A DNA stretch of 64,000 bases from Bacilli bacterium (GTDB taxonomy: Bacteria; Bacillota_I; Bacilli_A; RFN20; CAG-826). Position numbers and translations under genes: made by a program. The stretch's first letter is position 1, and the number at the start of each line of letters is the position of its first letter. Shown piece by piece: positions 37,152-58,744 of this stretch. Where the stretch lies: positions 1 through 64,000 of the forward strand of contig JALCDB010000008.1 of the NCBI GenBank assembly GCA_022641095.1, read 5' to 3'. The notes beneath the pieces are model-generated. The model searched no databases, was not told where the DNA came from, and saw nothing but the letters and a program-made list of their open reading frames with translations.

Positions 37152-38048
37152 ATGAAAACGAAATGCCTTCTGCCGTTTCTCGCGCCCCTTTGCTTGTCCC
37201 TTTCCGGATGCGGGGGCGCCAAGACCCCGGTCGACGTCATTATCATGGGCGGCCAATCGAACATGGTCGGCTGCTCCGCTTACTCCGGGCTCAAGGACGA
37301 GATCGGCTCCAGCCGTTACGAGGCCTTTGAGCGAGGCATGGGCGGAGTCAAAACGAGCTATGACTGCTGGACGAAGGATGGCGTCGGCGAATACAAAGAG
37401 CAAAACGGCTCGAACGGCAAGTTCGTGAACGTCTTTCTGGGCCAAGGCAACAGCGATCTGACCTTCGGGCCCGAAATCGGGATGGCCGAAACCTGGAACG
37501 AAAGCCGGGCCGGCAAGCTTTTCCTTATCAAATACGCCTGCGGAGCCTCGAATCTCCTTGACGATTGGGCGGCGCCCTCAAGCGGGAAAAAGACGACGAT
37601 GTACGATAATTTCGTCACTTACGTGAACGCCCAACTCCAAGTCCTCGAGAATAGCGGCTACGCCCCCACCGTGCGCCTCATGTGCTGGATGCAAGGCGAA
37701 GGCGATTCCTATCCGGGGTATTACTCCGAGTATTATCAGCAACTGACCTATTTGGTTAAGGACCTGCGCAAGGAATTCGCCGACCATGAGCCCGAGGAGG
37801 GCTTCGCTTTCGTCGACGGCGGCATCAGCGACAGCCCCGCCTGGGCCTATTACAAAGAGGTAAACGAAGCCAAAGCACAATACGCCGCGACGAGCGAACG
37901 GAACGTCTATATCGACACCATCGCCGCCGGTCTCACGAAAGACACTCTTCAAGACGACAACGCCCACTACCGGGGGCAGTACATGGTGCGGCTCGGAGGG
38001 CTTTTCGCGGACGCTTGCGAACCGTTTTTGAGCGATGTCAGCCAGTGA
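37152..38048 (+). CDS. Lipoprotein sialate-O-acetylesterase-like (SASA) esterase
   Basis: The 298-residue protein has a lipoprotein signal (MKTKCLLPFLAPLCLSLSGC) and then an SGNH-type esterase domain of the SASA (DUF303) group. The nucleophile block is IIMGGQSNMVG, WMQGEGD lies in the middle, and the catalytic pair is in DNAHYRGQ near the C-terminus. This group removes acetyl groups from glycans; here probably from mannan or xylan side chains on the cell surface. The ATG at 37152 gives the signal peptide and lies six bases after TATGAT (37140-37145), without a clear ribosome site. Confidence 0.87.
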   Translation: MKTKCLLPFLAPLCLSLSGCGGAKTPVDVIIMGGQSNMVGCSAYSGLKDEIGSSRYEAFERGMGGVKTSYDCWTKDGVGEYKEQNGSNGKFVNVFLGQGNSDLTFGPEIGMAETWNESRAGKLFLIKYACGASNLLDDWAAPSSGKKTTMYDNFVTYVNAQLQVLENSGYAPTVRLMCWMQGEGDSYPGYYSEYYQQLTYLVKDLRKEFADHEPEEGFAFVDGGISDSPAWAYYKEVNEAKAQYAATSERNVYIDTIAAGLTKDTLQDDNAHYRGQYMVRLGGLFADACEPFLSDVSQ

Positions 38049-38808
38049 TGGTTTCTCCATGAGCGTCCGCGATTTCTTCGTCGGCGGCCTCGCTCATTCT
38101 AAACGCGTCAAGATATTGCTTCCCGAGGGATCGGGCCCTTTTCCGCTTCTCATCGTCCACGATGGCAAGTGCGCTTTCAGGAAAGATGCGCCCGAAGGAT
38201 GCGAATGCCTCGCCATCGACGAGGCCCTCGCGGGACTTGGGCGAAGAATGGCCGTCGCGGCGATCGAAGAGGAGCCGTGGCAAACGCGAACCAAAGAGTA
38301 TTCGCCCTTTCCATGGGTCGATGAGGCATCGGTTTATCTGCCCGCGGGCGAGGAAAAAGGAAAAGCCTACGCCGAATGGATAATGAAGGGATTGCTTCCC
38401 GCCTTGGAAAGCGACTTCCCAATCGAACGGAACGGGAAGGGCCGCTATATGCTCGGATGCTCGCTCGGGGCCCTCATGAGCGCCTATATGTCTTTCGCCT
38501 ACCCCGGAGCCTTCGGGAAAATCGGTTGCATGTCCCTCGCCAGTTGGGGCAACGAGCCCGCCTTCCTCTCTTTTTGCGAAAGCCGAGAGAGCCGTTCCTC
38601 GTATTTCCTTCGGGTCGGAACGAACGAGGGGACGCCGCGGGGCATCGCTTCGCTGTCCGGCGCTTACCCGCGGATCGCCGAGGACTTCAGAAGGATCCTG
38701 ATCGGAAAAGGCCGGCCCGTGGATTTCGCGATCAACGATGGGCGGGCCCACAAAACGGTTGAGTGGAGCAAGGATATGCCGGCTTTCGTCGGTTTTTTGT
38801 CGCCATGA
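38035..38808 (+). CDS. Esterase-D-like alpha/beta hydrolase
   Basis: The 257-residue protein resembles the esterase D/enterochelin-esterase group. It has a beta-rich start (VKILLPEGSGPFPLLIVHDG), the nucleophile elbow GCSLGAL (GxSxG) at about 145-151, and a C-terminal His in NDGRAHKTVEW. No signal peptide, so likely cytoplasmic, perhaps deacylating imported oligosaccharides. The ATG at 38035 overlaps the preceding gene by 14 bases; the ATG at 38059 (MSVRDFF) is equally plausible. Its last 77 bases overlap the converging CE2 gene. Confidence 0.82.
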   Translation: MSASDGFSMSVRDFFVGGLAHSKRVKILLPEGSGPFPLLIVHDGKCAFRKDAPEGCECLAIDEALAGLGRRMAVAAIEEEPWQTRTKEYSPFPWVDEASVYLPAGEEKGKAYAEWIMKGLLPALESDFPIERNGKGRYMLGCSLGALMSAYMSFAYPGAFGKIGCMSLASWGNEPAFLSFCESRESRSSYFLRVGTNEGTPRGIASLSGAYPRIAEDFRRILIGKGRPVDFAINDGRAHKTVEWSKDMPAFVGFLSP

Positions 38809-39856
38809 GGGATTTGATGAGAGAAAGCAGTTCGCGCGCGGCCTCCTCATGCATCTTCGCATTGGGATGGCCGCCGTTAGCCATATAGCCGCCAGCTTTG
38901 AGGGAATCGAAACGGATGAAACTCACGGGCCGGGGGTAGGAGAGGCACGCCTCTTCGATGAGCGAATCCACCACCTCGTTGGCGATCATGCCGGTCCCCG
39001 CGATGACGAGCGGATCGCCATAGGCGGCGAAGACGCGGTCGAGGAATTTCTTAAAAGCGGCTTTAAAGCCCTTTTTTAAGGTCTCCCGTTTCGATGGGTC
39101 GCTTTCGGAACGGATGAGCTGATCGTCGTTGGTCCCCAGATTGATGACCACAATGTCGGGGAGGAAGGACGAATTGTCCCATCCGACCTTCTCGAGCGGG
39201 CCCATGCCCCAACGGAAATCCGCCATGTCGAACATCGTCGGGATGTCTTTGATTCTCTCTTGGGCGTTCCATGGGGATCGGTAAAGGGCGAAGCCCCCGA
39301 TCGCGACGATCGAGAAATCCGCGTCCAAAGCCTCCGAAACGAGACCCGCGTAGCCGATGAGGGGGTTTTCGGTCCGCGTCTCGTAGACATCGTCGCCGGG
39401 AAGGCCCTCGCTGCCGTTGCCGGCGGTGATCGAATCGCCGTAGAACTCGATTTTAAGGCGCTTTTGCGGCGATATCGACCGAAAAGACCCGTCGGTCGTC
39501 AGGCTTTGAAGGCCCGTGAAGGAACACGAGGCCTCGGTCCGTTTGTAGACTCGGACGCGATGGACGCCATAAGGAAGCCCCCCGCAAAGAAGGTATGGGG
39601 CTTTTTCCTTGTCGAGCCCGACGGCCTTGGCTCCGGCGAAGGATCCCCCGTCGACGACGATGGCGAGATAGGCCCGCCCGTCCTTTTGCCCGCAGCAATC
39701 GGCCACGAAATCGGCGGACAGGCGGCTTCCAAGGAAGCGAACCTCGAAACCGGAGGCCGAGAAAGTGAACATATAGGCTTTCTTTTCCTCGTCATCAAAG
39801 CCCCGGCCCAAGGGTCTGAGGAACGTTTTGCCAAACGGGAAGGAGAGGGTTTTCAT
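38732..39856 (-). CDS. CE2-type SGNH acetylesterase
   Basis: The 374-residue protein has an N-terminal beta-sandwich (about 1-125) and a C-terminal SGNH domain, the layout of carbohydrate esterase family 2. Catalytic blocks are EFYGDSITAGNG (Ser), NLGTNDD and GGHPNAKMHEE (His). CE2 enzymes deacetylate mannan and xylan oligosaccharides and accompany GH130 in known gut mannan loci. No signal peptide, so intracellular. The start overlaps the ABC ATPase stop by four bases. The last 25 or so residues (RRKPAYPCSTQ...) overlap an opposing gene and look like an extension. Confidence 0.9.
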   Translation of the reverse strand: MKTLSFPFGKTFLRPLGRGFDDEEKKAYMFTFSASGFEVRFLGSRLSADFVADCCGQKDGRAYLAIVVDGGSFAGAKAVGLDKEKAPYLLCGGLPYGVHRVRVYKRTEASCSFTGLQSLTTDGSFRSISPQKRLKIEFYGDSITAGNGSEGLPGDDVYETRTENPLIGYAGLVSEALDADFSIVAIGGFALYRSPWNAQERIKDIPTMFDMADFRWGMGPLEKVGWDNSSFLPDIVVINLGTNDDQLIRSESDPSKRETLKKGFKAAFKKFLDRVFAAYGDPLVIAGTGMIANEVVDSLIEEACLSYPRPVSFIRFDSLKAGGYMANGGHPNAKMHEEAARELLSLIKSLMATKNRRKPAYPCSTQPFCGPAHR

Positions 39857-41730
39857 TTTTCGACCTTGATCGAGTCCTCGCCTAGCGCGAGCGTGAAGGA
39901 GGGGGCCTTATAAACGCTGAAGTCGGCCGGAAGGAGGAAGGTGGCGTAATCGTCAAGCCCGCTCACCTGGACGAACGCGGCGTTGCGGGAACCCAAAAGA
40001 TCCTCGTCATAAGCCGAAACCTTGATGGTCCGGTTTTTCTCGTATCTGGGGTTTTTGCGGCCGATCCTTTTGGCGTCCTTTTTGCCAAGGATCGCCGCGC
40101 AACCCGTCTCTTTGAGGCGAATCGTGTGCTCCCCGTCGGGCACCTTCAGATCCGGAACCGCCACTTTGTTGCCGCCGAAGGAGACGACGCTCTTGCCGTT
40201 CCTGGTGACGATGTTGGCTTTTGCGATGTTCGGAAGGATCTTCTCCTTGCTGATCAGACGGTTCCCCTCCTCATCCTCGAAATAGATATCCTTCGGCGCG
40301 ACGTAAAGCGAGACGGCGTCGCCCTCCTTGACGTTGCTATCGAGACCAACGTTCGTGACGATGTATTTGCCGATTCCATCCGAAGTCAGGAAAATGGTGA
40401 GGCAGTCGGTCTTTTTGACGACGAAACCCACTTTGCAAGCGATTCGGAAAGCGAAGTCTTTCCTCGTAAGGCTCGCGTCCTTGGGTGAAAAGCAAAGATA
40501 CGTCTTCGCGGCTTCGAAAGCCGTTTCGAGAAGCCGTTCCTTGTAATCTGAAGGATAGACGAACACGTTTTTGCCAATGGAGGCGGAATCTCTCCCGATG
40601 CAGCAAAGCAGGCGGTTCACTCTCGGCACGTCCATGACCGAATTGCCGCTCTTCTTGTCGAAAAGATGGGCTTTCCCCATCTCGAAGGAAAGGAAAATCC
40701 TGTCTTTGGGCTTGTATTGCCCCGTCGCGACCCCTTTGACGAGGACGTTGTCGTCGCTGCCCTCGATTTTGGCGTAGACGATGGTCTCGTCGCCGAGTTG
40801 CTCGATGACGTCGATTTCGGCGGGGATGCCCGTTTCGGCGATTTGAATATGCTCGGGCCTAAGGCCGAGGAGCATCTCGTGGCCGATATAGCTTTCCTCT
40901 GACAGTTCCTTGGCCTTCAGCTCTGGGAAATCCACTTCGAGCTTCTCGAGGCCGTGGAGATAAGCGACCAACCGATCGCCTTTTTCCATGAGTTTGCAGT
41001 CGATGATGTTCATCTGGGGAGAGCCAAGGAAAGTGGCGACGAAAAGGTTGGTTGGGTTCTCGTAAAGGTTGACGGGGGTGTCGACTTGCTGGATGAATCC
41101 CTTGTTCATGACGACGATGCGGTCGCCCATGGTCATGGCTTCCGTCTGGTCATGGGTGACGTAAATGAAAGTCGTGGCCAACCGCTTATGGAGCTTCGTG
41201 ATCTCGGTGCGCATCTGGACGCGGAGCTTGGCGTCGAGGTTGGAGAGAGGCTCGTCGAGCAGAAAGACCTTTGGCTCGCGGACGATGGCGCGCCCGAGAG
41301 CCACGCGTTGGCATTGGCCGCCGGAGAGGGCTTTCGGCTTTCGGCTCAGCAAATCGGTGATCTCGAGGATCTCGGCCGCCCGATTGACGCTCTCCTCGAT
41401 CTCTTTGGGCGGCAAATGGCGGAGCTTCAGCCCGAACGCCATGTTCTGAAAGACCGTCATATGGGGGTAAAGGGCGTAGTTCTGGAAAACCATCGCGATG
41501 TCGCGGTCCTTCGAATCGACGTCGTTGACGAGGACGTCGTCGATGTAAAGGCCGCCCGAGGTGATGTTCTCAAGCCCCGCGATCATGCGGAGCGTCGTCG
41601 ATTTGCCGCATCCGGAAGGCCCGACGAAGACGACGAATTCGTCGTTTTTGACGTCGAGGGTGAAATCGTTGACGGCCCTCACGCCCCCTTCGTAGACCTT
41701 GTAAATGTGATTCAAGCGCACTTCGGACAT
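39853..41730 (-). CDS. Sugar ABC transporter ATPase with doubled regulatory region
   Basis: Residues 1-240 are an MsmK/UgpC-type ATPase: Walker A GPSGCGKSTT, Q-loop FQNYALYPHM, signature LSGGQCQRVALGRA, and Walker B VFLLDEPLSNLD with an intact catalytic Glu. A normal MalK-type OB/TOBE region follows to about residue 370, ending near KAHLFDKKSG. Unlike the usual 360-380-residue proteins, it continues for about 255 residues. That extension has two more TOBE-like beta segments (ending APKDIYFEDEEG and about 520-560) and an unknown end. It likely powers the permeases at 52-53.7 kb. AGGAGG precedes the ATG. Confidence 0.92.
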   Translation of the reverse strand: MSEVRLNHIYKVYEGGVRAVNDFTLDVKNDEFVVFVGPSGCGKSTTLRMIAGLENITSGGLYIDDVLVNDVDSKDRDIAMVFQNYALYPHMTVFQNMAFGLKLRHLPPKEIEESVNRAAEILEITDLLSRKPKALSGGQCQRVALGRAIVREPKVFLLDEPLSNLDAKLRVQMRTEITKLHKRLATTFIYVTHDQTEAMTMGDRIVVMNKGFIQQVDTPVNLYENPTNLFVATFLGSPQMNIIDCKLMEKGDRLVAYLHGLEKLEVDFPELKAKELSEESYIGHEMLLGLRPEHIQIAETGIPAEIDVIEQLGDETIVYAKIEGSDDNVLVKGVATGQYKPKDRIFLSFEMGKAHLFDKKSGNSVMDVPRVNRLLCCIGRDSASIGKNVFVYPSDYKERLLETAFEAAKTYLCFSPKDASLTRKDFAFRIACKVGFVVKKTDCLTIFLTSDGIGKYIVTNVGLDSNVKEGDAVSLYVAPKDIYFEDEEGNRLISKEKILPNIAKANIVTRNGKSVVSFGGNKVAVPDLKVPDGEHTIRLKETGCAAILGKKDAKRIGRKNPRYEKNRTIKVSAYDEDLLGSRNAAFVQVSGLDDYATFLLPADFSVYKAPSFTLALGEDSIKVEK

Positions 41731-41732
41731 AA

Positions 41733-42587
41733 CTAGTCCTCCTTTTTATGCAAGCCCTTGCCCACGAGTTCGGGGTAATGGGTCTCGTTGATCGTTTGGT
41801 CGTAGACGCCGTTGGCGTATATCTGAAAGGCCACCGCCGCGTCCGTCGCGAAGAAAAGGATCAGGGCGATGGCCACGTAAGCGGACGCCTGGCTGATGAG
41901 GAACAGGGCGATGGCGATGCCCGGGCTCATGATGACGAAAAGGACGTTGGCCGGCAATTTCATGAAAGCGAAAAGGAACGAATTTTTGAGAGTGGGGAAA
42001 AAGCCGTTCTCGTAAATGGCCTCTTGGCTCAAAAAGTAATAACTGGCCGCGGTGACGAGGACGAAGACGAAGATGAGCAGCCCCATCCCGATTCCCGTCG
42101 CGATGGGGGCGGACGCGTAGAAAAGAAGAAGATAGAAGGAACCCATGAACGCGGCGGCCCCCGCGATCCCTTCGATCGCCCCGACGGCGAGGGCCCGCTT
42201 CCAGCCGTCCCTAAGCCCGCGGAAGAAATCCGACGTCGCCAAAGTCCCTTCGAGATACGCCAAGCGCTTGGCGAGGCAAAAAGCCCCCGAGAGGCCGACG
42301 TAAAGGGCCATGACGCACGGGATGGCGATGAGGGAGGCATAGAAAAGAAGGGAGAAAACGGACGAGGAATAGCCCGAGGAAGAGGCGTCGAGGCCACCGA
42401 TGAGGGCGCTGAAGACGAAATAGTCGGCCAGCAAAGGCAAAACGAAAAGGGCAAGGAGCCAGGACGAGGCCATTAGAATCCGCCACTGCCCGCTCCAGCA
42501 ATCCCATAGAAGGGCCCATCTCGTCGCTGGAAGCTCCCGTTTCGAGAAGTCGGTCTCGCGCGGCGCCTTCTTTTTGAAAAGTTTCAT
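41733..42587 (-). CDS. YesL-like (DUF624) membrane protein
   Basis: The 284-residue protein has about six hydrophobic spans and the DUF624 look: an N-terminal amphipathic stretch, then WALLWDCWSGQWRILMASSW before the first span. DUF624 proteins are encoded beside Lpl-type sugar ABC transporters in Firmicutes and have no proven role. The start overlaps the previous gene by four bases, and two bases separate its stop from the ATPase start. It belongs to a tight block with the next two membrane proteins. Confidence 0.75.
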   Translation of the reverse strand: MKLFKKKAPRETDFSKRELPATRWALLWDCWSGQWRILMASSWLLALFVLPLLADYFVFSALIGGLDASSSGYSSSVFSLLFYASLIAIPCVMALYVGLSGAFCLAKRLAYLEGTLATSDFFRGLRDGWKRALAVGAIEGIAGAAAFMGSFYLLLFYASAPIATGIGMGLLIFVFVLVTAASYYFLSQEAIYENGFFPTLKNSFLFAFMKLPANVLFVIMSPGIAIALFLISQASAYVAIALILFFATDAAVAFQIYANGVYDQTINETHYPELVGKGLHKKED

Positions 42588-43192
42588 GCCGCGCCCCCCC
42601 GTAGATAGACGAATTCCTTAAGGGCCAAATCGTACTCTGGGTTGTCGTAAAGCCCCATGTCGCCGATATTCTTCGAAATCGAGTTCACGCATAGATAATA
42701 GTCTTCGTCGACGAAGGAAACATAGTCCGAAAGCCAGCCGGACGCGTCGATTCCGACGCCATAGGACTTACCGTCCTGCTCAAAGAAGCCGCTCGCTCCC
42801 CCGCAATAGGATCCAACGAAGCCCTCGGCATCCTCGAAGGGCAGCATGATGTCCGAACAGGCTATGGATTCGAGGGTGCTTTTCGGAAGAAGGAAAAGAT
42901 CGCTGCCATTGTAGCCGACGACCGAAAGTTTTTGGCTATAGAGGGAATCGCTCGGGTCGCAATAGGTTACGGTGGCCTCTTTCATGCCATCGTCGGAAAG
43001 CTCCGTTTCGATCTTTTTGGCGAAATCGTCCTTCTCGACGCCCCCAGCACCGACGAAAACGTCGACCGTCTCGAAATAAGCCGGACGGTGACTGACGTAA
43101 AAGAGATAGCTCACCGTAAAACCAAGCACGAGCGGAAGGATGAGGTAAAGAGGCCAACTATAGGCGAGTCTTGCCTGAAATTTCCTATTCAT
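42584..43192 (-). CDS. Membrane-anchored protein resembling part of a solute-binding protein
   Basis: The 202-residue protein has one N-terminal membrane span (about 12-32) and an outer domain. Segments such as GSDLFLLPKSTLES, DIMLPFED and SYGVGIDASGW read like parts of an extracellular solute-binding fold, but it is less than half the usual length. I do not recognise a family. Overlaps of eight and four bases with its neighbours imply tight co-translation. It could be an accessory sensor or docking piece of the sugar transporter. Confidence 0.72.
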   Translation of the reverse strand: MNRKFQARLAYSWPLYLILPLVLGFTVSYLFYVSHRPAYFETVDVFVGAGGVEKDDFAKKIETELSDDGMKEATVTYCDPSDSLYSQKLSVVGYNGSDLFLLPKSTLESIACSDIMLPFEDAEGFVGSYCGGASGFFEQDGKSYGVGIDASGWLSDYVSFVDEDYYLCVNSISKNIGDMGLYDNPEYDLALKEFVYLRGGAA

Positions 43193-43676
43193 GGGGGTTG
43201 TCCTCGATCGCCAAAACGACGTTAGAGAAGCTCTCGATGCGGACTCTGGATCCGGGAAGGAGCCTCACGCTCCCGCTCATCAGGTAAAAATCGCGCTCAA
43301 AGACCCGGTCTCCCTCCGTGAAGGAAGTTTTGAGGGGAATCATGTCGATCCCCTCTTTCTCGACGGGATCGCCTTGGCCGACGACGCTCACGAGCGAGGT
43401 TTCGCGCAGCCCCGTCTCGGCGCTGAGGAAGAAACGGTAACGCCTGCTCCGCTCGCGGAAAGGGACCGTGAGGAAGTAGAGAAGCCACCAAACGTAGGCG
43501 AGGCCGGCCCCCACGCAAACCCACATCTCGGCAAGGTATTCCTCGCCCGACAGGAAAAGGCACAGGATCAGGAGCGTCAGATATGCGGCGCTCACGAAAA
43601 CCATGAGCCAAACCCCGGCGCGACGCCTGGCCCCCCAGTATTCCGTTTCCTTTTCGATGTCGAGGAGTTTCCTCAT
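43185..43676 (-). CDS. Two-span membrane protein with C-terminal beta domain
   Basis: The 163-residue protein has spans at about 22-44 and 50-70 and a C-terminal cytoplasmic region predicted as beta strands (FFLSAETGLRETSLVSVVG and SGSVRLLPGSRVRIESFSN). No family recognised. I chose the ATG at 43676 (MRKLLDIEKETEYWG), six bases after the preceding stop; the open frame to 43727 overlaps that gene. It overlaps the next gene by eight bases. Confidence 0.7.
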   Translation of the reverse strand: MRKLLDIEKETEYWGARRRAGVWLMVFVSAAYLTLLILCLFLSGEEYLAEMWVCVGAGLAYVWWLLYFLTVPFRERSRRYRFFLSAETGLRETSLVSVVGQGDPVEKEGIDMIPLKTSFTEGDRVFERDFYLMSGSVRLLPGSRVRIESFSNVVLAIEDNPHE

Positions 43677-43681
43677 CTTTT

Positions 43682-44989
43682 CTATCCCAGCCAGTTTTGG
43701 AGGGCTTTTTTGATTCGCGCGCCCCAAAGGACATATCCGTATTCGGACATGTGCATGCTATCGGCGCGGAAGAAGGCGGCGCTCGCCTCCCCGCTTTCCT
43801 TTAGGAGCGCCTCGCCGGCGGCGACGCCCTCGATCCAGCTTTTGCCTTCGATAAAGGAGGCGATTTTGGAATTGGTTTCGCGAATGCTGTCAGCGTAACC
43901 GGCGTTATAGCCCGGCAAGACGTTGATGTAAACGAAGAAGACGTGGGCCTCGGGAAGCCGTTCGTGCGTTTTCCCCATGAGCTCTTCGACGTTGCTCGCG
44001 ACCGTCTCGACGCCTAAACCGCCGTTGACCAAATCGTTGACGCCGACGTAATAGACGACGGCCTTCGGGCGATAAGGGACGACGAGGCGCTCCAGAAGGG
44101 CATCCCTCCATTGGGCCGCGGTCGTGCCGCCGATGCCATGGTTATAGGCCACGATCGGATCGAGGGCGCGCTCGTAACCGTCCCAGAATTCCATGGACGA
44201 GGATCCGGCGAGCATGATGTGGTAATTCCCTTCGTCGCCGCCTTCCTCCTCGTAAGCCACCGCCTTGCTCTCGTAAGTGGAATTGCTTAAAACCAGCGAC
44301 GATGAGGCGTTTTCCGCCACCGAAAGGACGGTGGTCTCCTCGCTCTCGCCGTTGAGGCTGGTGACGGTTATGGTCCCCTTCGCCGCGTCATAGACGGCCG
44401 CGGAGATCGAGGTGAGGCTTTTGCGCGTGTAATTGAGGGCGAAGCGGACGTCGCCCGGCGCGCTCTCGAGGCGCGCCAAAGCCCCCTTCGTCAGATAATA
44501 AACCCCTTCCGTCGCCCCCACGTTCAGGACGCCGGTGATCTTCAGATTCCCCTCGATGCCGTCATCGATCGATTCGACGGGCGTATAAACAGGCTCCACG
44601 TATTCCCCTTCCCCCGTCTCGGTCCATTTGGCGTAAAGGAACGTCGAGGACTCGACGGAATCGCCGGCGAAATCGAAGGCCTCCTCGCAGGCGGAGTCGA
44701 GGCACCAGCCGGCGAAATCATATCCGGGCCTCGTCGGATTCTCGCTCGGGGGAGTGAGAAGGCATGGCACTTCGATGCTTTGAGTCGCGTAAACCAATTG
44801 GTTTGTGATTCCCTCGCCGTACCCCTCGGCGAACGAGGCTTTGTCGTAATTGTAATAGTAAGCGGCGATGTCCCGGCTTTCGAAAACAGGCAGGCTGCCG
44901 ACCGCGACCGGAAGGGGGCCCCCATCGCCGCCGCACCCCGCAAGGCACAAAAGCGCAGCCGCCCCCATAGCCAAAAAACCTTTTTTCAT
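43682..44989 (-). CDS. GDSL/SGNH lipoprotein with InlB-type repeat
   Basis: The 435-residue lipoprotein starts MKKGFLAMGAAALLCLAGC. After a linker comes a Listeria-Bacteroides (InlB B-type) repeat at about 80-115 (TRPGYDFAGWCLDSAC ... FLYAKW), then a beta domain, and a C-terminal SGNH hydrolase (about 250-435). The hydrolase blocks are MLAGSSSMEFW, YYVGVNDLVNGG and DSMHMSEYGY. It is probably a surface acetyl-esterase. The ATG at 44989 has AAGGAGG upstream and overlaps the GH130 stop by four bases; the longer open frame to 45121 is not credible. Confidence 0.88.
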   Translation of the reverse strand: MKKGFLAMGAAALLCLAGCGGDGGPLPVAVGSLPVFESRDIAAYYYNYDKASFAEGYGEGITNQLVYATQSIEVPCLLTPPSENPTRPGYDFAGWCLDSACEEAFDFAGDSVESSTFLYAKWTETGEGEYVEPVYTPVESIDDGIEGNLKITGVLNVGATEGVYYLTKGALARLESAPGDVRFALNYTRKSLTSISAAVYDAAKGTITVTSLNGESEETTVLSVAENASSSLVLSNSTYESKAVAYEEEGGDEGNYHIMLAGSSSMEFWDGYERALDPIVAYNHGIGGTTAAQWRDALLERLVVPYRPKAVVYYVGVNDLVNGGLGVETVASNVEELMGKTHERLPEAHVFFVYINVLPGYNAGYADSIRETNSKIASFIEGKSWIEGVAAGEALLKESGEASAAFFRADSMHMSEYGYVLWGARIKKALQNWLG

Positions 44990-51816: not shown

Positions 51817-52725
51817 CTATCCTTTGATGGCACCCACGACGATGCCTTTGACGAAGAAACGCTGCAAAAACGGATAGAAACACATCATCGGCACGATCGT
51901 GAAGAAGATCGAGGCCATGACGAGCCCTTCGCTATAGGTCCTTGAGGTCGGGCTTTCGACGCTCGTGGACATGCTGGCGATCATCTCGCGGAGGACCAAT
52001 TGGAGCGGACGGAGGGTGCTTTTCTCGGTGAAGAGCATGCCGTTATACCAACTGTTCCAGTTGCCGACGGCGAAGAAAAGGCCCACCGTGGCCAGCATCG
52101 GAAGGGACAAAGGCAAATAGACCTTGACGAAAATCTGCATGTCGTTGGCCCCGTCGATGCGGGCGCTTTCCTCGAGCTCCTTCGGGAGCGAGGCGAAGTA
52201 GTTGCGCATAAGAAGCATGTTGAAGGTGTCGATCGCCCCCGGGATGATCATGACCCAAATGGTGTTGTACATGCCTAAGTCCTTGATCAGATAGTAATAA
52301 GGGACGAGGCCGCCGCCGAAGAACATGGTGACGAGGATCATGTTCATGACGAAATTCTTGCCGACCCATCTTTCGCGCGACATCGCGTAACCGGTGATGA
52401 CGGTGAAGAACAGCTGATAGGCCGTCCCGCCGACAAGGAGGATCATCGTGATCCCGAAGCCGTTCCACATCTCGCTGTTGGTAAAGACGGACTCGTAGGC
52501 CTCGAAGGTGAGGTCGGTCGGCCACAGGAGGATATCGCTCGTCATGTAGGCCGTTTCGCTGGAAACGGATATCACGAAGCAGTAATAGAACGGGAAGATG
52601 ACCGCCAGGACATAGAACAGAAGGATAAGGAACAGGACGATGTCCATCGCGCTTCGGCGGTCGTTGGCGTTCTTCCCGTGCGGACGGAGGGGCAGCCTTT
52701 CGAGCGTGGCTTTCTTTTTTCCCAT
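51817..52725 (-). CDS. Sugar ABC permease, LplC type
   Basis: The 302-residue protein has six membrane spans and the ATPase-contacting EAA loop (EESARIDGANDMQIFVKVYL) near residue 190. It is an oligosaccharide permease of the LplC/YtcP group, which pairs with LplB-type subunits. The long cytoplasmic start MGKKKATLERLPLRPHGK is typical. It starts one base after the stop of the partner permease gene. Confidence 0.94.
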   Translation of the reverse strand: MGKKKATLERLPLRPHGKNANDRRSAMDIVLFLILLFYVLAVIFPFYYCFVISVSSETAYMTSDILLWPTDLTFEAYESVFTNSEMWNGFGITMILLVGGTAYQLFFTVITGYAMSRERWVGKNFVMNMILVTMFFGGGLVPYYYLIKDLGMYNTIWVMIIPGAIDTFNMLLMRNYFASLPKELEESARIDGANDMQIFVKVYLPLSLPMLATVGLFFAVGNWNSWYNGMLFTEKSTLRPLQLVLREMIASMSTSVESPTSRTYSEGLVMASIFFTIVPMMCFYPFLQRFFVKGIVVGAIKG

Positions 52726-52726: not shown

Positions 52727-53680
52727 CTAGATGATCCCCCTTTCCCCGCACAGTTTGGCGATGCGGTCGACCGAGATGACGAGGATGAAGGAAACGACGG
52801 ACTTGAAGAGGCCGATGGCCGTTCCGATGCCGGGGTTCACGAGATTCGTGAAGGTCTGACGGTATATATAGGTGTCGAGAATGTCGACCTGATCGTAAAC
52901 CAAGGGGTTATAAAGGTTGAAGATCTGGTCGAATCCGGCCGAGAGGATGCCGCCCACCGAAAGGATGAGAAGGAGAATCGCCGTGCTCTTGATGCCTGGC
53001 AAGGTGATGTGCCAGATTTTTTGGCTCCGGGAGGCCCCGTCGATGTCGGCGGCTTCGTATAGTTCGGGCGGGATCCCCGCCATGGTGGCTAAGTAAATGA
53101 TGGAAGACCAGCCGGCCTCCTTCCAGATGTCGCTCACGAAAATAAGGCCGAGGAAGAAGCCCCCGTCGCCGAGGAAGGTCGTTCGGTCCCCGCCGCAGGC
53201 CACCGCGATGTCGTTGACCACGCCGGTCCTGGAAAAGAGGACGTCGATGAAGCCGGCGATGACGATCCAGGAAAGGAAATGGGGGAACGTGACGATGGTC
53301 TGCGAGAACTTCTTGAAGCGCTTGAGCCGGATTTCGTTGATGAGCAAAGCCACCAGAATCGCGGCCACGAAGGAAATGACGATTTTGCCCGCCCCGATCA
53401 GGATGGTGTTCCGTAAGACGTTCGCGAAATCGGGGTCGCTGCTGAAGATGTAGGTGAAGTTGCCCCACCCGACGAAATGCTCCTTCAGACTGCCGATGAT
53501 GCCGAGTTTGGGGTAGTACTTGGTGAAGGCCATGAGGACCCCGTACATCGGGATGTAGCAGAAAATGAAATAGAACGCCACCGCCGGAACGATCATGGCG
53601 ATCAGGTAGCGGGATTTGACGAAATTCCGCCCGAAATGGTGGAATCTCGACTGTCTTTTGCGGATGAGGACCCGTTCCAT
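52727..53680 (-). CDS. Sugar ABC permease, LplB type
   Basis: The 317-residue protein has six spans, the LplB-type start (RYLIAMIVPAVAFYFIFCYIPMYG) and the EAA loop LYEAADIDGASRSQKIWHI. It forms the membrane channel with the LplC-type subunit. The ATG at 53680 shares one base with the TAA of the GH130 gene (TAATG). A longer frame to 53734 lies inside GH130 and is rejected. Confidence 0.94.
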   Translation of the reverse strand: MERVLIRKRQSRFHHFGRNFVKSRYLIAMIVPAVAFYFIFCYIPMYGVLMAFTKYYPKLGIIGSLKEHFVGWGNFTYIFSSDPDFANVLRNTILIGAGKIVISFVAAILVALLINEIRLKRFKKFSQTIVTFPHFLSWIVIAGFIDVLFSRTGVVNDIAVACGGDRTTFLGDGGFFLGLIFVSDIWKEAGWSSIIYLATMAGIPPELYEAADIDGASRSQKIWHITLPGIKSTAILLLILSVGGILSAGFDQIFNLYNPLVYDQVDILDTYIYRQTFTNLVNPGIGTAIGLFKSVVSFILVISVDRIAKLCGERGII

Positions 53681-54660
53681 TATCTGCTTCTTTCCTTGAT
53701 GAAGCCCACGAGGCGGTCGACATAGGAGAAGCAAAGCGACGTGTACGTGTCGGCGCTTCCGTAATAGATGGCCATCCGCCCTGTCCTCGCGTCCACTAGG
53801 GCGGACGTCGGGAAGCAGACGTTGGGCACGAAGCCAGACGTTTCGTAATCCTTTTCGGGCGTCAGAAGGTAATCGCGGCAGCGGAAAAGGACCTTTCCGG
53901 GACGCTCCCGGTCGAGGAGGGCGCCCGAGAAACTATAGACGAAGCCGTTGCAGGTGTTCGTGACCCCATGGAAAAGGAGAAGCCACCCCTCATCGGTTTC
54001 GATGGGGTTGCTTCCGGCGCCGATCTTGGTGAGGTTCCACCATTCCCAGCCCCGTTCCATCACATGCTCGTTCTCGCCCCAATGGATCAAATCGGGGGAC
54101 TTGGAAAGGAAGATGTCCCCGAACGCCGTGTGGCCCGAGTCGCTGGGGCGGGACAGCATGACGTATTCGCCGCCGATCTTGCGCGGGAAAAGGACGCCGT
54201 TGCGGTTATAGGGCAAAAAAGGATGCGGGTATTTGACGAATTTCCGGAAATCGGTCGTTTTCGCGATGGCGAGAGCCGGGCCAAAAAAGTCGTCGCACCA
54301 AGTGACGTAATAGGCTCCCTCGATCTCGACGAGGCGCGGGTCGTACTGGTAGTGGCTTTCGGCCGCGTTCCCTTCCTCGTCCACGAAGACGATGGGCCTG
54401 TCCTCGAATTCGATCGAAAGCCCATCCGCGGAGCGGCCAACGTACAAATGGGGGACCCCTGTGCGATCCTCGGCGCGGAAAACGCCGATGAAAGCCCCTT
54501 TGTAGGGAACGAGGGCCGAGTTGAAGACGCGGGAGAGGGACCCGGCGGGGTTTCGCTTGATGAGCGGGTTGCCGCTGTAGCGCCACACGGGGTCCAGGCA
54601 GCCTTTCGGGCATTCCTCGAACGGGATGTTCGGTATGTCTTTTTCGTTGATGATCCTCAT
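53680..54660 (-). CDS. GH130 manno-oligosaccharide phosphorylase (second copy)
   Basis: The 326-residue GH130 protein resembles beta-1,4-manno-oligosaccharide phosphorylases. Blocks are LIKRNPAGSLSRVFNSA, YQYDPRLVEIEGAYYVTWCD with the catalytic Asp, SRPSDSGHTAFGDIFLS (phosphate-binding residues), GAGSNPIETDEGWLLLFHGV and GFVPNVCFPTSA. It would release mannose-1-phosphate from the non-reducing end of imported chains. It is the first gene after lacI and is followed directly by the permease genes. Confidence 0.93.
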   Translation of the reverse strand: MRIINEKDIPNIPFEECPKGCLDPVWRYSGNPLIKRNPAGSLSRVFNSALVPYKGAFIGVFRAEDRTGVPHLYVGRSADGLSIEFEDRPIVFVDEEGNAAESHYQYDPRLVEIEGAYYVTWCDDFFGPALAIAKTTDFRKFVKYPHPFLPYNRNGVLFPRKIGGEYVMLSRPSDSGHTAFGDIFLSKSPDLIHWGENEHVMERGWEWWNLTKIGAGSNPIETDEGWLLLFHGVTNTCNGFVYSFSGALLDRERPGKVLFRCRDYLLTPEKDYETSGFVPNVCFPTSALVDARTGRMAIYYGSADTYTSLCFSYVDRLVGFIKERSR

Positions 54661-54673: not shown

Positions 54674-55684
54674 CTAAAGCCTCCGTGTCGAATCCCGCCT
54701 CACGAGCGGGCAATGGACGACGATCTGCGAATACTGGAGCCGCCGCTCCGAGAACATGCCGAGCAGATAGTCGGCGATCTCTTTCCCTAACTCCTCGCGG
54801 GGGACGTTGAACGTCGTGAGGGCTGGGATGGCCTCTTGGCCCTCCCGGACGTTGTCGAATCCCGTGACGCTGATGTCGTCGGGGATCCGCATGCCTATTC
54901 GGGCGATGACCTTGTAGGCGTTGAGCGCGATGATGTCGTTCGCGCAGAGCAAGGCGGTTATTCTTTTCTCCCTCAAGGCCCTTTCGAGCATCGCGTCGTC
55001 GCTGTAATTGAGCGATGAGTTGTCGAAGTCGAGCGAGACGCCCGCGATGCCCTCTCCCTTATGGGAGGCGATCGCGGCTAAGAAACCCTCGTGCCGCTCC
55101 CGGAAGGAAGTCGAATGGGCGTCGCTTCCGTAGAAAGCCAGAATCCGATGGCCCTTGCCGATGAGCATTTCCGTGGCTTCGTAAAGGGAGTCGTAATTGG
55201 AGAACTTGACCTTCGTGATGCAGTCGCTATGGAAGGTCTTGGGATCGACCTCCACCACCGGCTTGCCCAAGTCCTTGAGCCGGTCGTTGATGGGGGTGGG
55301 GTTGCTGTGGATGAGGATGTAGGCCGAGCAGGCGCTGGAAGCCAGTTTGCTCAGGCTTTCCTCGTCGAGTTTCCCCTCCTCGTAAACGAAGTAATCGAGG
55401 GTGATGGAACTGAAGTCGAGGGTCTTGGCGACGGACTTGATGATCGGCTGCCAGTAGTCTTCCTTGAAGAGAAGGCGCGAAGGGATGACGAGGACGACGC
55501 GGCTGAGCGGCTTCACGGCGCTCCGCAGGCGCCCCTTGTCGTAGCCGAGTTCGAGGGCCTTTTTGACGATGCGGTTCTTGGTCTCGTCGCTCACGTTGTA
55601 TTTCCCAGCCAAAGCGCGCGAAACCAATCCCTTGGTCACCCCGCACTCGCGGGCGATGTCCTCCAGTCGTATCCGATTGCCCAT
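54674..55684 (-). CDS. LacI-family transcriptional regulator
   Basis: The 336-residue protein has an N-terminal LacI-type helix-turn-helix (RLEDIARECGVTKGLVSRAL) and hinge (residues 1-58), then a periplasmic-binding-protein-like sensor domain with ALLCANDIIALNAYKV and DISVTGFDNVRE. It likely represses the downstream GH130-transporter-esterase genes until a sugar inducer binds. The ATG at 55684 gives the family start MGNRIRLEDIA; the frame is open to 55762. Its promoter region holds two GTAAAC motifs 20 bp apart and an 8-bp inverted repeat. Confidence 0.94.
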   Translation of the reverse strand: MGNRIRLEDIARECGVTKGLVSRALAGKYNVSDETKNRIVKKALELGYDKGRLRSAVKPLSRVVLVIPSRLLFKEDYWQPIIKSVAKTLDFSSITLDYFVYEEGKLDEESLSKLASSACSAYILIHSNPTPINDRLKDLGKPVVEVDPKTFHSDCITKVKFSNYDSLYEATEMLIGKGHRILAFYGSDAHSTSFRERHEGFLAAIASHKGEGIAGVSLDFDNSSLNYSDDAMLERALREKRITALLCANDIIALNAYKVIARIGMRIPDDISVTGFDNVREGQEAIPALTTFNVPREELGKEIADYLLGMFSERRLQYSQIVVHCPLVRRDSTRRL

Positions 55685-55707
55685 AGCCAGCTTTTCCCCT
55701 CTCTTTG

Positions 55708-55794: not shown

Positions 55795-55801
55795 CAATCT
55801 T

Positions 55802-58744
55802 TCACCACGCCAAAACGTTATCGATCAGCATCGTTCCCGTCACGACATCGGAGGATGGGGCGTAATCGGTGTAGACGAAAATCGAGAAGCCGTATACGTC
55901 TTTGACGGAGGAAAGGGAACCGCTCACGGTCATCCAGTCCGATCCGGCGGCGACCGCGGAACCGGCCGACGTGCTGAGGCGAGTCGCGCTCGAGCCGCTC
56001 ACCGTGCAAACGTAAAGCTGCGCGGTGATCTTGAGCGAACTGGTGTTCTTGACGCGGAATGAGAAGTTGGAAAATGAGCCAAGCGAAGCCTCTTGCGACC
56101 AGCGGTAACGGTATTTGCCGATTTTGGCCGCCGTGGTGTCGACCGCGAAAGCGGCCGAGGCGAAGCCCGCGTCCTGGCCAGTCGTCTCAAGGCCAACGAA
56201 ATCGGAGTTGCCGCCTGGGGCATAGGTCGTGAAGGTGCCGCTGTTATTAAGATCGCGGTCGACGTAAACAAGGTCTTGCAAAGAAGAGGCCGTCATATTG
56301 TCGTAGCTGATGAGCCTCGTTTTGTTAGGAAGCCGGGCCTGAAGGAAGAGGTTGGCGCAATAGGCGCCGTAATTGCCCGTCGCGCTGACGTAGCTGATGC
56401 AAGTGCGATCGACTGAGAGAAGGCCGGTGTAAACGAGGTCGGCGCCGCAGTCGATGACGATTTCCTTCGTCTCGGCGTCGACCGTGTAGGTGCCCGCCAG
56501 ATTGATCGCCGAAGCGCCTTTAGGGGTGGCGACGACGGAAATGGAGGAATGGTTGCCAAGCGTGCCGACGACCGAGCTCATGTAGGCGTTGGAACCGCCA
56601 TAGACGGTCCCCGATTTGATGGGCGAACCGTCGACGAAATGGCTATAGGGGTTGACGCCGGTGTAAAGCTGAACGTCATCCACGTACATCCTGGATCCGG
56701 ATTTGACGTAGCCGAAGTTGAGGCTGTAGCCATAGTAGTGTTTGCTGGCGCTCAAAGCGACGGTGTACTGAGCGTAATCGCTCGAGGCCGGGATCGTGAT
56801 GGTGGCCAAAGCGTCGCCGATGTTGCCGATATTGACGCTGGCATATTGGAAGAGACGGACGTAGCAGGTCACGTCGCTTGCGCTGGCGTTTTTCGCGAAG
56901 AACGAGAACGTGTCGCCCCTAGGAAGCGCCGTAGCCGTGCCGTCGCTCACGCCGTAGGTGGAGTAACGCATGCTGTTGCCGGTCTTGAAGTCCGCGGCTT
57001 GTTTGCCGCTGTGGACTTCGCTCGCGTCGGTCGCGAGGTTCAGGTAATTGTCGGATCCCATAAGGGACCACTTGCTGCCCGAGAGCTCATCGCTGTCGGA
57101 GGCGTCGCCGCTATAGTATTCGCTATAATAGGCGGCGCGCAGACCGGTCCGGTTTCCGGGATTCTTGTTATTCTTGTCGTAACCGACGCCGGTTTCGGCG
57201 TAATCCTCGAAGTCGTCGATGGTATAGACGTAGTTGAAACTGACGTTGGTCAGATAGGGGGCGTAGGTTCCGCTCGCCGACTTAAAGGCGATCGCGCGCC
57301 CTTTTTCGGTCACGGTGCCGACGTATGTGAGCGAAGCGCCGCCGTCGGCGGTCTTGAACGTGACGGCGTCGCCCTCGTCCGTTTCGGCGAGGGTGGCATT
57401 GAGGTTGCTCTCAAGGTTGAGGGAAGACAGCGTGATGGCCGTCCCGTCCGATTCGAGTTTGAAATCGATGCCGGAGGTTGCGTTGACGCCGGTATAGGAG
57501 CCAGCCACGGTCCAATCGTCGCTTTGCGAGAAAGAGCCATCGCCCTTCGCGACGAGCGTCATGTCGCTGAGGTAATCGTGGGTGTACTGATAACTGCTGT
57601 CGCCAACGGTCTTGTAGACGAGGTCGATCTCATTGAAGGCGTAGAGGGCATCGCTAGCCGAGCCGAAGCCTTTGGCCGTCGCGAATTGGGCGAGGGTGTA
57701 CGAAGTGCCGCCGACGATCCATCCCGCATCGGAGAAAGGAACGTAGATGAGGTTCCAGTTCGAGGAGATGACGCCGAGATTGAGGGAGACGTAGCCCTCC
57801 GATCCGGTCAGTTGGATGAGCATGGCGGTCTTGTCGTCGCCTTTGACTTTGAGCGAAAGGCCCGCATAGGAATCAAGGGTCGAAACGGATGAGGCGAACT
57901 TATAAGGGAAGGATTGCTGGATCTTGAAATCGATCACGGGATCCGCCTCTTCGACGTCGGCGGGGTTGACGGAAAGGGCCGCGTGGGCCCCCGCGTCCTC
58001 CCACGCGTTCGTGCTCGGGGAATAAAAATAGGAAATGAGGCCGTCGTCGACCTCGGTCTTGTTGCTAAGAACGACCCTGTTTTCGGTGGCCGCTTCGACG
58101 ATCCAACGGTATTCGGTCGCCGCGGTGCCGACGTAATTAAGGTTATCGTCGGAGTCGTAGCCCGGGTTGACGGAGACGCCCAACTTGCCGGAAGAGGCGG
58201 CCGCGTAGGCGCCGCCGACCGCGGCGGACCAGGTCTCGCTATCGAGATCGCCGGTCGCCGAGAAGGCGCTCGTGACGTTGCCGACGGCCGTCCAAGTGGC
58301 CGTCATTCCGGAAACGCTGATGGCGCTAAGGCTGATTTCTTTGGTTTCATAGTCCCAAGTCGCCGCTTCCGAATCAGAGTAATTCGTTCCATCGCCGACG
58401 GATTTCACGGAAACGGCGTATTTGCCGACCGCGGCGGAAAAGTCGTAAGAGGCGGCGGCGGCGTATTCGCCGTCGTTGACTTTGACCTCGTAACCGGAGG
58501 CTCCGGTCACATCGGCCCAAACGAGGCCGGTCTTTTCGGCGTTGAGGGTCAAACTCGGGGCCGCCAAAACGACGGGAACGACCGAGGATGAGCTCCCCGC
58601 TATGGATGAAGAGGTGCTTGCGACATGGCTTTCGGAGGAAGAGCCCGCCGCGGATGTGGCCCCAGAACCGCTTGATGTCCCGCCGCAGCTCGTCAAAGCG
58701 AGGAGGGCGCCAGCGGTAACGAGAAGGTAATTTCGTTTCTTCAT
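55802..58744 (-). CDS. Very large surface lipoprotein with repeated beta domains
   Basis: The 980-residue protein starts MKKRNYLLVTAGALLALTSC, a lipoprotein signal, then a Ser/Gly/Ala-rich linker of about 45 residues. A fibronectin-III-like module (ASGYEVKVNDGEY) follows. Several carbohydrate-binding-like beta-sandwiches come next, with strands such as VIDFKIQQSFPYKF, GYVSLNLGVISSNWNLIYVP, YAQYTVALSASKHYYGYSLN and FSNFSFRVKNTSSLK, each closing with a segment like DDVQLYTG or IDNVLAW. No catalytic motif is seen. It probably binds polysaccharide at the surface. AAAGGAAG precedes the ATG. It heads the locus behind a long regulatory region. Confidence 0.83.
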   Translation of the reverse strand: MKKRNYLLVTAGALLALTSCGGTSSGSGATSAAGSSSESHVASTSSSIAGSSSSVVPVVLAAPSLTLNAEKTGLVWADVTGASGYEVKVNDGEYAAAASYDFSAAVGKYAVSVKSVGDGTNYSDSEAATWDYETKEISLSAISVSGMTATWTAVGNVTSAFSATGDLDSETWSAAVGGAYAAASSGKLGVSVNPGYDSDDNLNYVGTAATEYRWIVEAATENRVVLSNKTEVDDGLISYFYSPSTNAWEDAGAHAALSVNPADVEEADPVIDFKIQQSFPYKFASSVSTLDSYAGLSLKVKGDDKTAMLIQLTGSEGYVSLNLGVISSNWNLIYVPFSDAGWIVGGTSYTLAQFATAKGFGSASDALYAFNEIDLVYKTVGDSSYQYTHDYLSDMTLVAKGDGSFSQSDDWTVAGSYTGVNATSGIDFKLESDGTAITLSSLNLESNLNATLAETDEGDAVTFKTADGGASLTYVGTVTEKGRAIAFKSASGTYAPYLTNVSFNYVYTIDDFEDYAETGVGYDKNNKNPGNRTGLRAAYYSEYYSGDASDSDELSGSKWSLMGSDNYLNLATDASEVHSGKQAADFKTGNSMRYSTYGVSDGTATALPRGDTFSFFAKNASASDVTCYVRLFQYASVNIGNIGDALATITIPASSDYAQYTVALSASKHYYGYSLNFGYVKSGSRMYVDDVQLYTGVNPYSHFVDGSPIKSGTVYGGSNAYMSSVVGTLGNHSSISVVATPKGASAINLAGTYTVDAETKEIVIDCGADLVYTGLLSVDRTCISYVSATGNYGAYCANLFLQARLPNKTRLISYDNMTASSLQDLVYVDRDLNNSGTFTTYAPGGNSDFVGLETTGQDAGFASAAFAVDTTAAKIGKYRYRWSQEASLGSFSNFSFRVKNTSSLKITAQLYVCTVSGSSATRLSTSAGSAVAAGSDWMTVSGSLSSVKDVYGFSIFVYTDYAPSSDVVTGTMLIDNVLAW

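Follow-up and report, generated by a model that had tools for sequence, protein, structure and literature searches.

A conserved gene cassette for putative beta-mannan utilization in an apparently wall-less lineage of Bacilli

Genes of the locus, their conservation and the host

The window analysed here is a stretch of 64,000 nucleotides of contig JALCDB010000008.1, from an uncultured and apparently wall-less bacterium of the CAG-826 family. All of the cassette genes named in the original prediction were present as open frames between positions 34321 and 58744, with families assigned by Pfam and NCBIfam scans. The coordinates given there, 37152-58744, hold for the block from the esterases to Lip980 but the mutase and ManA genes lie outside them, at 34321-36916. 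The features are as follows.

32878..34296, minus strand: ROK sugar kinase fused to NUDIX (207 and 70 bits), candidate mannokinase
34321..35241, minus strand: ManA mannose-6-phosphate isomerase (PF20511)
35243..36916, minus strand: phosphogluco/mannomutase with four PGM_PMM domains, proposed to convert mannose-1-phosphate to mannose-6-phosphate
37152..38048, plus strand: SASA-type acetylesterase lipoprotein (PF03629, 66.7 bits)
38035..38808, plus strand: esterase (Pfam PF00756)
38732..39856, minus strand: CE2 acetylesterase (CE2_N, 50.8 bits, and GDSL)
39853..41730, minus strand: UgpC/MalK-type ATPase (NF008653), 625 aa with ~260 extra C-terminal residues
41733..42587, minus strand: M3, polytopic membrane protein (weak NCBIfam MusI_fam match)
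42584..43192, minus strand: M2, one hydrophobic segment and a soluble domain, no known family (from sequence)
43185..43679, minus strand: M1, small membrane protein (hydrophobic segments at 20-74)
43682..44992, minus strand: GDSL-type esterase lipoprotein with a Flg_new repeat (Lipase_GDSL_2, 43 bits)
44986..46002, minus strand: GH130b, predicted mannoside phosphorylase from a GH130 clade without characterised members (alignment and PDB matches)
46017..48689, minus strand: Lip890, surface lipoprotein built from tandem CIA30/CBM11-like beta-sandwich modules (Pfam matches of members, and model)
48691..50202, minus strand: GHA, lipid-anchored clan GH-A glycosidase by predicted fold, candidate new mannanase family
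50199..51803, minus strand: solute-binding lipoprotein of the importer (SBP_bac_8, 4.5e-05, below the Pfam cut-off)
51817..52725, minus strand: LplC-type ABC permease (PF00528)
52727..53680, minus strand: LplB-type ABC permease (PF00528)
53680..54660, minus strand: GH130a, predicted GH130_2-type beta-1,4-manno-oligosaccharide phosphorylase (similarity to TM1225)
54674..55687, minus strand: LacI-type regulator (Pfam LacI PF00356 and Peripla_BP_3 PF13377)
55802..58744, minus strand: Lip980, large surface lipoprotein with no Pfam family in the Pfam scan

The block recurs in nearly the same gene order across dozens of other genomes. The same run of 11 genes was found in 30 of the 39 named loci encoding GHA, eight more agree as far as the contig end and L043 departs from it; the run is conserved beyond chance. 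In each of the 39 loci GHA comes after the binding protein, with GH130b two genes further on in the 33 which reach that far, and 14 of 15 genomes with GHA also have GH130, against 14 of the 178 other genomes. The LacI gene immediately precedes GH130a in 24/39 loci. Relatives of Lip980 scoring above 45 bits occur in 30/39 loci, many at 22-46% identity, a mutase relative is present in 20/39 of the fetched loci and CE2 relatives above 45 bits in only 6/39. A tree of the cassette loci took in 33 of the 39; among the 10 labelled Clostridia, L043 and L054 were excluded as a core gene was less than 80% covered. Alignment A3 comprised 32 of the 39 loci plus the window, and alignment A1 14 relatives. 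A promoter scan of 54500-59500 gave one site where 1.8 were expected, and the repeats within the locus belong to short families only. No description of the cassette was found in the available portions of the literature matches listed, one of which names CAG-826, using it there for taxonomy.

The original prediction of a possibly wall-less host is supported by the genome. The transpeptidase PF00905 gave no match in it but was found in 10 of 14 controls, and the single Mur_ligase_M match, of 39 bits, looks by eye like a FolC-type protein. The genome thus shows neither a penicillin-binding transpeptidase nor a Mur ligase, the pattern of a peptidoglycan-deficient organism, in agreement with the available part of PMC10868615, which predicts the CAG-826 family to be peptidoglycan-deficient.

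The two GH130 proteins and their linkage

Pfam PF04041 matches both GH130 proteins (209 and 177 bits). They are the only GH130 genes in the genome, which is 89% complete, and neither is GH130_1-like. GH130a scores 443 bits with TM1225, 362 with RaMP2 and 356 with Uhgb_MP and has a Tyr beside the acid Asp, so that by its sequence it groups with the beta-1,4 enzymes of GH130_2 type. The available part of PMC8950772 lists TM1225 among the beta-1,4-manno-oligosaccharide phosphorylases. Uhgb_MP is an N-glycan enzyme; GH130a could act like it on the mannosyl-chitobiose core of N-glycans and the locus would then forage on glycoproteins, including those of milk. The score of 356 bits and the origin of the host in a reactor fed with milk permeate (PMC9302107) fit such a diet. 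However, GH130a is nearer to TM1225, alpha-mannosidase, endo-glycosidase and hexosaminidase families were unmatched among the cassette proteins scanned, the several esterases suit an acetylated polymer and the GH125 locus, L109, is a separate locus. An N-glycan target is therefore very improbable.

The evidence for GH130b is divided. Its best PDB matches are 9fj8, which we take to be Teth514_1788, and 7fip (196 and 160 bits), both beta-1,2 enzymes (1,2-beta-oligomannan and beta-1,2-mannobiose phosphorylases). Like the beta-1,2-mannoside phosphorylases (9fj8, 7fip, which is Teth514_1789, and Lin0857), GH130b has a Glu beside the catalytic Asp, a mark of the beta-1,2 side seen in all 34 cassette sequences (the window and 33 loci), and a Lys276 common to three beta-1,2-side references. 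Arg165, Lys228 and His247 are also present in 34/34, so GH130b keeps basic residues as phosphorylases do; these presumably bind phosphate, a role assigned by alignment. Lys228 does not discriminate, the alignment of Teth514_1789 also having Lys there. Position 165, however, is Lys in three aligned beta-1,2-side references, Arg in five beta-1,4-side sequences and Arg in all 15 GH130b-clade members of the tree.

Lys199 of BT3780 is said to set beta-1,2 specificity and lies between Asp142 and Glu227 (PMC4599007). BT3780 is outside our alignment, in which columns 165 and 276 both fit the Lys pattern; because Lys199 lies between these two residues column 165 was chosen over 276, and we infer that position 165 of GH130b corresponds to Lys199. 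GH130b would thus have Arg where the beta-1,2 group has Lys. It also differs from the beta-1,2-mannoside phosphorylases in the length of the stretch between positions 105 and 142, which has 37-43 residues in GH130b and 10-11 in the full reference sequences of TM1225, RaMP2 and Uhgb_MP.

The gene neighbours of GH130b relatives outside the cassette bear on the same question. Close relatives occur in nine non-cassette genomes, and a GH130a relative lies in the fetched stretch of seven of these; none was found in L108 and L164 of the nine, nor in L102 and L104. CE2 relatives (24-31% identity) are near the GH130b relatives in 6/9. Three of the five GH2-size frames nearby were scanned; all three belong to GH2, and in two of them mannosidase Ig domains are clear. 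An epimerase and GH130_1 stand alongside GH130b relatives in two loci, L101 and L168, and a 626-aa lipoprotein of L101 has a GH5 match in one of five relatives scanned. Such neighbours are not exclusive to beta-1,4 loci, since the available part of PMC4264767 describes a GH5 gene and an ABC importer in the beta-1,2 cluster of Thermoanaerobacter as well.

The original prediction named membership of other-sugar clades, such as that for beta-1,2-mannan, as the finding which would change the substrate. The nearest solved relatives of GH130b are indeed beta-1,2-mannan enzymes but Arg165 and the gene neighbours oppose this assignment, and a purely beta-1,2 reading of GH130b is not preferred. A polymer of mixed beta-linkage would accommodate both GH130 proteins. 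If it were a microbial mannan, such as a capsule or a yeast exopolysaccharide, in which beta-1,4 bonds are combined with beta-1,2 or beta-1,3 ones, GH130a would act on the former and GH130b on the others. The PDB matches, the Glu beside the acid and Lys276 point this way, as do the inclusion of a beta-1,3-mannobiose phosphorylase in GH130_NC (in the available part of PMC8950772) and the reactor feed, which was lactose-rich milk permeate and not plant wall (PMC9302107). Given that the specificity Lys (PMC4599007) aligns to Arg in every cassette and clade sequence, and that a GH130_2-type gene is near seven of the nine non-cassette relatives, a mixed-linkage polymer is a rather unlikely substrate. 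A beta-mannan-type locus, as originally predicted, agrees with the grouping of GH130a and with the GH130_2-type, CE2-like and GH2 genes often found near GH130b relatives.

Surface proteins and importer

The coding sequences of GHA and of the binding protein start at ~50202 and ~51803, in each case inside the longest open frame. The structure model of GHA (pLDDT 85.8) has GH30 proteins as its nearest folds (5cxp and 7n6h, GH30 xylanases, 11-14% identity, TM ~0.6 by query; for 5cxp E 1.3e-18 and TM 0.59/0.74). Glu185, in NEPN, and Glu299, in WExGL, are invariant in 15/15 aligned rows and are positioned as in clan GH-A, and presumably have the roles usual there. The earlier label GH-A is thus supported by the predicted fold but not by Pfam, which gives no match for GHA itself. 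No match to PDB sequences was obtained by phmmer or profile, and among 15 members no GH30 Pfam match appeared at E 1, whereas six members, the window's GHA not among them, have weak GH59 matches. GHA therefore shares with GH30 glycosidases the modelled fold and two Glu but not the sequence family, and with no mannanase-family match either it appears to fit no characterised group. We know of no activity for GHA or for any GH130b relative.

Among 33 aligned members of the Lip890 group, CIA30 matches 32, the exception being the protein of the window, which has no Pfam match itself, and CBM_11 matches six. Structure prediction, which had been proposed for the large lipoproteins, gave for Lip890 a model matching the CBM11 modules 6r3m and 1v0a, one of them solved with a mixed-linked beta-glucan. 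These modules and the GH30 xylanase folds would suit a GHA that is no endo-mannanase but attacks a different backbone, for instance xylan or beta-glucan, with the GH130 pair handling part of the products. This is improbable, as GHA keeps its fixed place beside the binding protein and GH130b and the only phosphorylases of the cassette are of mannoside type. The GDSL lipoprotein was considered as a CE17 esterase and rejected; PAF-acetylhydrolases head its 11 PDB matches, none of which is better than 6.3e-05.

Cys25 of the binding lipoprotein is invariant (16/16 rows). The ATPase scores 472 bits against NF008653 (cut-off 432) with residues 1-364 covered. M1, M2 and M3 recur beside ABC ATPases at many sugar loci elsewhere in the order. 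MusI is part of the corynebacterial maltose importer; M3 matches its family at only 34 bits, far below the cut-off of 160, and M1 and M2 match no family at cut-off in the family scans. M2 was also rejected as a cut-down solute-binding protein, profile comparison with the cassette binding proteins giving a probability of 0.6% and no SBP family matching across 32 M2 members.

A proposed route for acetylated beta-mannan

The likeness to Roseburia mannan loci seen in the original prediction is a loose one. With MULL/MULS of Roseburia intestinalis and FpMULL of Faecalibacterium prausnitzii, as described in the available parts of PMC6385246 and PMC8262883, the cassette has in common a LacI regulator, GH130_2, CE2 and a second esterase, an ABC importer with binding protein and a phosphomutase. 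It differs in that GH26 (PF02156), GH5 (PF00150) and mannobiose 2-epimerase (PF07221) gave no match in the genome at its 89% completeness, and in lacking a GH130_1-like protein, while adding GHA, GH130b, the large lipoproteins and the M1-M2-M3 group. No GH113 Pfam match was obtained for the proteins of the locus that were scanned. As to the alpha-galactosidase and GH3 beta-glucosidase of Roseburia-type loci, the genome has one Melibiase and one GH3 match, both on other contigs.

The genes, their order and conservation, the predicted folds and the residue patterns are observed, and from them we infer the activities, the linkage and the substrate. On this basis the cassette is probably a self-contained means for a wall-less host to use acetylated beta-1,4-mannan. 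Lip980 and Lip890, lipid-anchored at the surface, would bind the polymer, and its acetyl groups would be removed by CE2, SASA and the GDSL lipoprotein. GHA, as a lipid-anchored retaining enzyme of GH30-like fold, would cut the chain, acting as a mannanase that belongs to none of the known mannanase families. Oligosaccharides would be imported via LplB/LplC, the binding lipoprotein and the long UgpC-type ATPase. Inside the cell GH130a would release mannose from the chains as mannose-1-phosphate and GH130b would phosphorolyse short oligosaccharides, most likely mannobiose. If GH130b finishes the short chains then an epimerase and GH130_1 would not be needed, although GH130b may be dispensable for mannobiose because GH130a could act on it. 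The mutase and ManA, both present in the window as predicted, would take mannose-1-phosphate to fructose-6-phosphate and so feed glycolysis, and any mannose left free at the end would go to the ROK kinase. A bolder version would make GHA the founder of a new family of lipid-anchored endo-beta-mannanases in clan GH-A, place GH130b in a new GH130 clade as a phosphorylase dedicated to beta-1,4-mannobiose within an epimerase-free, wholly phosphorolytic route, and see in M1-M2-M3 an undescribed ABC-ATPase-linked membrane complex of sugar loci in wall-less Bacilli; it is tentative and as a whole unlikely.

For a wall-less gut lineage that is poor in sortases and known from metagenomes, the cassette offers a concrete diet that can be tested, and it shows how such cells may use lipid anchors to keep a degradative machinery at the membrane. 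GHA and GH130b each have a predicted substrate but no close relative that has been characterised, and the membrane protein trio M1-M2-M3 accompanies ABC ATPases at many of the order's sugar loci.

Layout of the locus and its host

The genes of the proposed beta-mannan locus lie in the window as follows.

From 58744, minus strand: Lip980 (a large surface lipoprotein), LacI, GH130a, LplB, LplC, binding lipoprotein, GHA (a lipid-anchored GH-A glycosidase), Lip890 (a second large surface lipoprotein), GH130b
Rest of the run down to 38732, minus strand: GDSL lipoprotein, membrane proteins M1, M2 and M3, UgpC/MalK-type ATPase, CE2
Starting at 37152, plus strand: SASA lipoprotein
Alongside the SASA lipoprotein, plus strand: PF00756 esterase (presumably EstD)
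Adjoining the esterase genes, minus strand: phosphogluco/mannomutase, ManA, ROK kinase-NUDIX fusion

A lipobox cysteine was recognised by eye in six proteins (Lip980, the binding protein, GHA, Lip890, GDSL and SASA), and a signal peptidase II gene is also within the window at 911-1624. The ROK-NUDIX fusion occupies 32878-34296; in loci L028 and L031 from other genomes we saw only a frame of ∼150 aa resembling its NUDIX part. The UgpC-type ATPase (39853-41730) has ∼260 extra C-terminal residues outside every listed Pfam match. An acetate kinase gene directly adjoins the locus on the opposite strand (59412-60614). Elsewhere in the window are alpha-amylase family enzymes (20028-21785 and 29143-31047), a glycogen-type phosphorylase (26679-29102), an AAA_14/DUF4143 ATPase (60866-62200) and a second, short DUF4143 frame (31408-32040).

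The window spans the initial 64 kb of one contig of 70,025 bases, in a genome of 1,591,364 bases on 15 contigs. We infer that this genome is UW_MP_BACIL4_1 (RFN20; CAG-826; UBA4951), the source of which is given, in a passage of the report describing it, as a reactor on ultrafiltered milk permeate (PMC9302107). Passages of another report predict that CAG-826 is peptidoglycan-deficient and that RFN20 is without sortases (PMC10868615). The transpeptidase family PF00905, present in 10 of 14 control genomes, had no match in the window genome, and the sole Mur_ligase_M match, at 39 bits, looks by eye like a FolC-type protein. Judged on a genome that is 89% complete, a wall-less host is well supported. 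FtsZ and FtsA are retained (4581-6963) in this genome, where no transpeptidase matched and the Mur_ligase_M match is only FolC-like.

Conservation of the cassette

A search of 193 relatives, counting the window's own genome, detected GHA in 15, which belong to 11 of 75 genera. A GH130 match accompanied GHA in 14 of the 15 genomes versus 14 of the 178 others; the single exception, G022, has its cassette cut off by the contig. The core order is kept in the 14 other neighbourhoods as far as the fetched stretches extend. Searching GTDB 220 contigs with the GHA profile gave 39 loci, in genomes partly overlapping the earlier relatives, and rumen, omasum or reticulum is mentioned in 12 of their record titles. 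A scripted comparison showed that 30 of the 39 have the run GH130a-LplB-LplC-SBP-GHA-Lip890-GH130b-GDSL-M2-M3-UgpC, where SBP is the solute-binding lipoprotein, with a space for M1 of 346-497 bases between GDSL and M2. Eight loci end at contig ends, and L043 departs from the pattern: its GDSL gene is followed by the mutase, and M1-M3 and the ATPase are missing. LacI immediately precedes GH130a in 24 loci and a mutase relative is present in 20. The GDSL lipoprotein is a fixed part of the cassette; seven Clostridia-labelled loci have two such genes. In a tree built from five genes of 33 loci, eight Clostridia-labelled cassettes group in one clade (support 1.0).

Apart from the window, the only loci in which CE2 and EstD were seen adjoining the ATPase are L019/L033 and L020/L042, the L020 stretch stopping before SASA. 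Since CE2 relatives above 45 bits occur in just 6/39 loci and SASA relatives in 4/39, deacetylation by CE2 and SASA is not a constant feature of the cassette.

The M2 profile listed 50 places in 28 of 145 relatives, 12 of them with cassette-level scores, and 20 of the other 38 were fetched and read. An M3 relative adjoins M2 in all 20. An ABC ATPase lies just upstream of the M1-size space in 15, beside M3 on the other strand in one, and at neither position in four. The ATPase is short (235-256 aa) in twelve loci, and L139 and L144 carry both the short and the UgpC type. The M1-M2-M3 trio associates with ABC ATPases generally, and may either serve the importer or act as an independent system. 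The trio (41733-43679 in the window) recurs beside ABC ATPases among L132-L151, other loci of the order, and one genome, G027, has nine M2 places, counting that of its cassette.

GHA and the large lipoproteins

The window GHA had no Pfam match, and neither its sequence nor its profile had a match in a PDB sequence search. A weak GH59 match was obtained for 6 of the 15 GHA members (best 1.6e-07), the window GHA not among them. In a fold search with the GHA model (pLDDT 85.8), GH30 enzymes ranked first (5cxp, E 1.3e-18; 11-14% identity), followed by chains of GH39 and, presumably, of GH51 and GH79. Glu185 (NEPN) and Glu299 (WExGL) are invariant in all 15 members and fit the acid/base and nucleophile of clan GH-A. 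Known beta-mannanase families named in a passage of PMC9032380 are GH5, GH26, GH113 and GH134. GHA is a candidate founder of a new family, and the genes accompanying it suggest that it is a mannanase.

CIA30 was matched in 32 of 33 Lip890 members, all except that of the window, and CBM_11 in six. Single modules of the Lip890 model (pLDDT 85.2) match CBM11 with target TM 0.65-0.67; the whole-chain matches ranking above CBM11 have TM <0.3. Lip980 matched no Pfam family.

The GH130 enzymes and the likely substrate

GH130a resembles GH130_2. The best PDB matches of GH130b were 9fj8, a 1,2-beta-oligomannan phosphorylase (196 bits), and 7fip, Teth514_1789 (160 bits); we take 9fj8 to be Teth514_1788. 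Parts of two earlier studies supply linkage markers: the residue beside the acid is Tyr in GH130_1/2 and Glu in GH130_NC (PMC4264767), and Lys199 of BT3780 marks beta-1,2 linkages (PMC4599007). GH130b has Glu89, the beta-1,2-side state, beside the acid, and Arg165 at the column aligned with Lys199, each in 34/34 cassette sequences. The Lys pattern fits two columns, 165 and 276; column 165 was chosen as the probable equivalent because it fits the BT3780 order Asp142-Lys199-Glu227. This column holds Lys in three beta-1,2-side references and Arg in five beta-1,4-side sequences, and position 276 of GH130b is Lys, as on the beta-1,2 side. Lys228 and His247 are retained in 34/34 cassette sequences. 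Position 228 is Arg in the three beta-1,2-side references yet Lys in Teth514_1789, so Lys228 points to a phosphorylase and not to a linkage. In a tree with partial references, GH130b and 14 relatives form one clade (support 0.73), sister to Teth514_1788, with Arg165 in 15/15 and Lys228 in 14/15. The segment from 105 to 142 has 37-43 residues in this clade versus 10-11 in TM1225, RaMP2 and Uhgb_MP. Having Glu89 and Lys276 of the beta-1,2 side and Arg165 of the beta-1,4 side, GH130b belongs to an uncharacterised clade with mixed markers.

In a sample of 392 genomes from the phylum, GH130b reached E 1e-60 or better in 11: the window's own genome, G058, which has the cassette, and nine more. In the stretches around GH130b in all nine, a GH130a relative was present in seven, a CE2 relative (24-31%) in six, and an epimerase with GH130_1 in two, L101 and L168 (461 bits to GH130_1 for L101). 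Three of five GH2-size frames were scanned and all three were GH2, with mannosidase domains clear in L163 and L167 and weak in L164. Five related lipoproteins, the 626-aa one of L101 among them, were scanned: that of L165 matched GH5, that of L168 DUF5060, those of L163 and L166 Big domains, and that of L101 nothing. Two further genomes, G014 and G033, have GH130b relatives at 46% with no GH130a nearby; the G014 relative has a GH94 gene two genes from it. On balance, the neighbours of the non-cassette relatives favour beta-1,4-mannan or glucomannan, but a GH5 gene and an ABC importer are also part of the Thermoanaerobacter beta-1,2 cluster, according to part of PMC4264767.

L101, L165, L167, L168 and L169, all with GH130a and GH130b, represent a second recurring Bacilli locus type. 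It has lipoproteins of one family, some of which match DUF5060 or GH5, a 974-1007-aa protein related to the L101 SBP fusion (979 aa), and frames of ∼700 aa, one of which was scanned and gave NHL and Yip1. L109 (G050) is a different mannose-type locus with GH125, DUF1861 and a GH130 having beta-1,2-side residues, as well as LplB/LplC, mutase and ManA relatives.

The epimerase Mep and GH130_1 handle mannobiose in Roseburia and Faecalibacterium, according to parts of PMC6385246 and PMC8262883, whereas the window genome, 89% complete, had no match for an epimerase, GH26 or GH5. It has one GH3 and one Melibiase, both on other contigs. GH130b most likely finishes mannobiose in this host, and GH130a might do so as well. 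In this wall-less lineage, the beta-mannan-type locus combines binding proteins held by lipid anchors with an unclassified GH-A enzyme and a GH130 clade whose markers are mixed.
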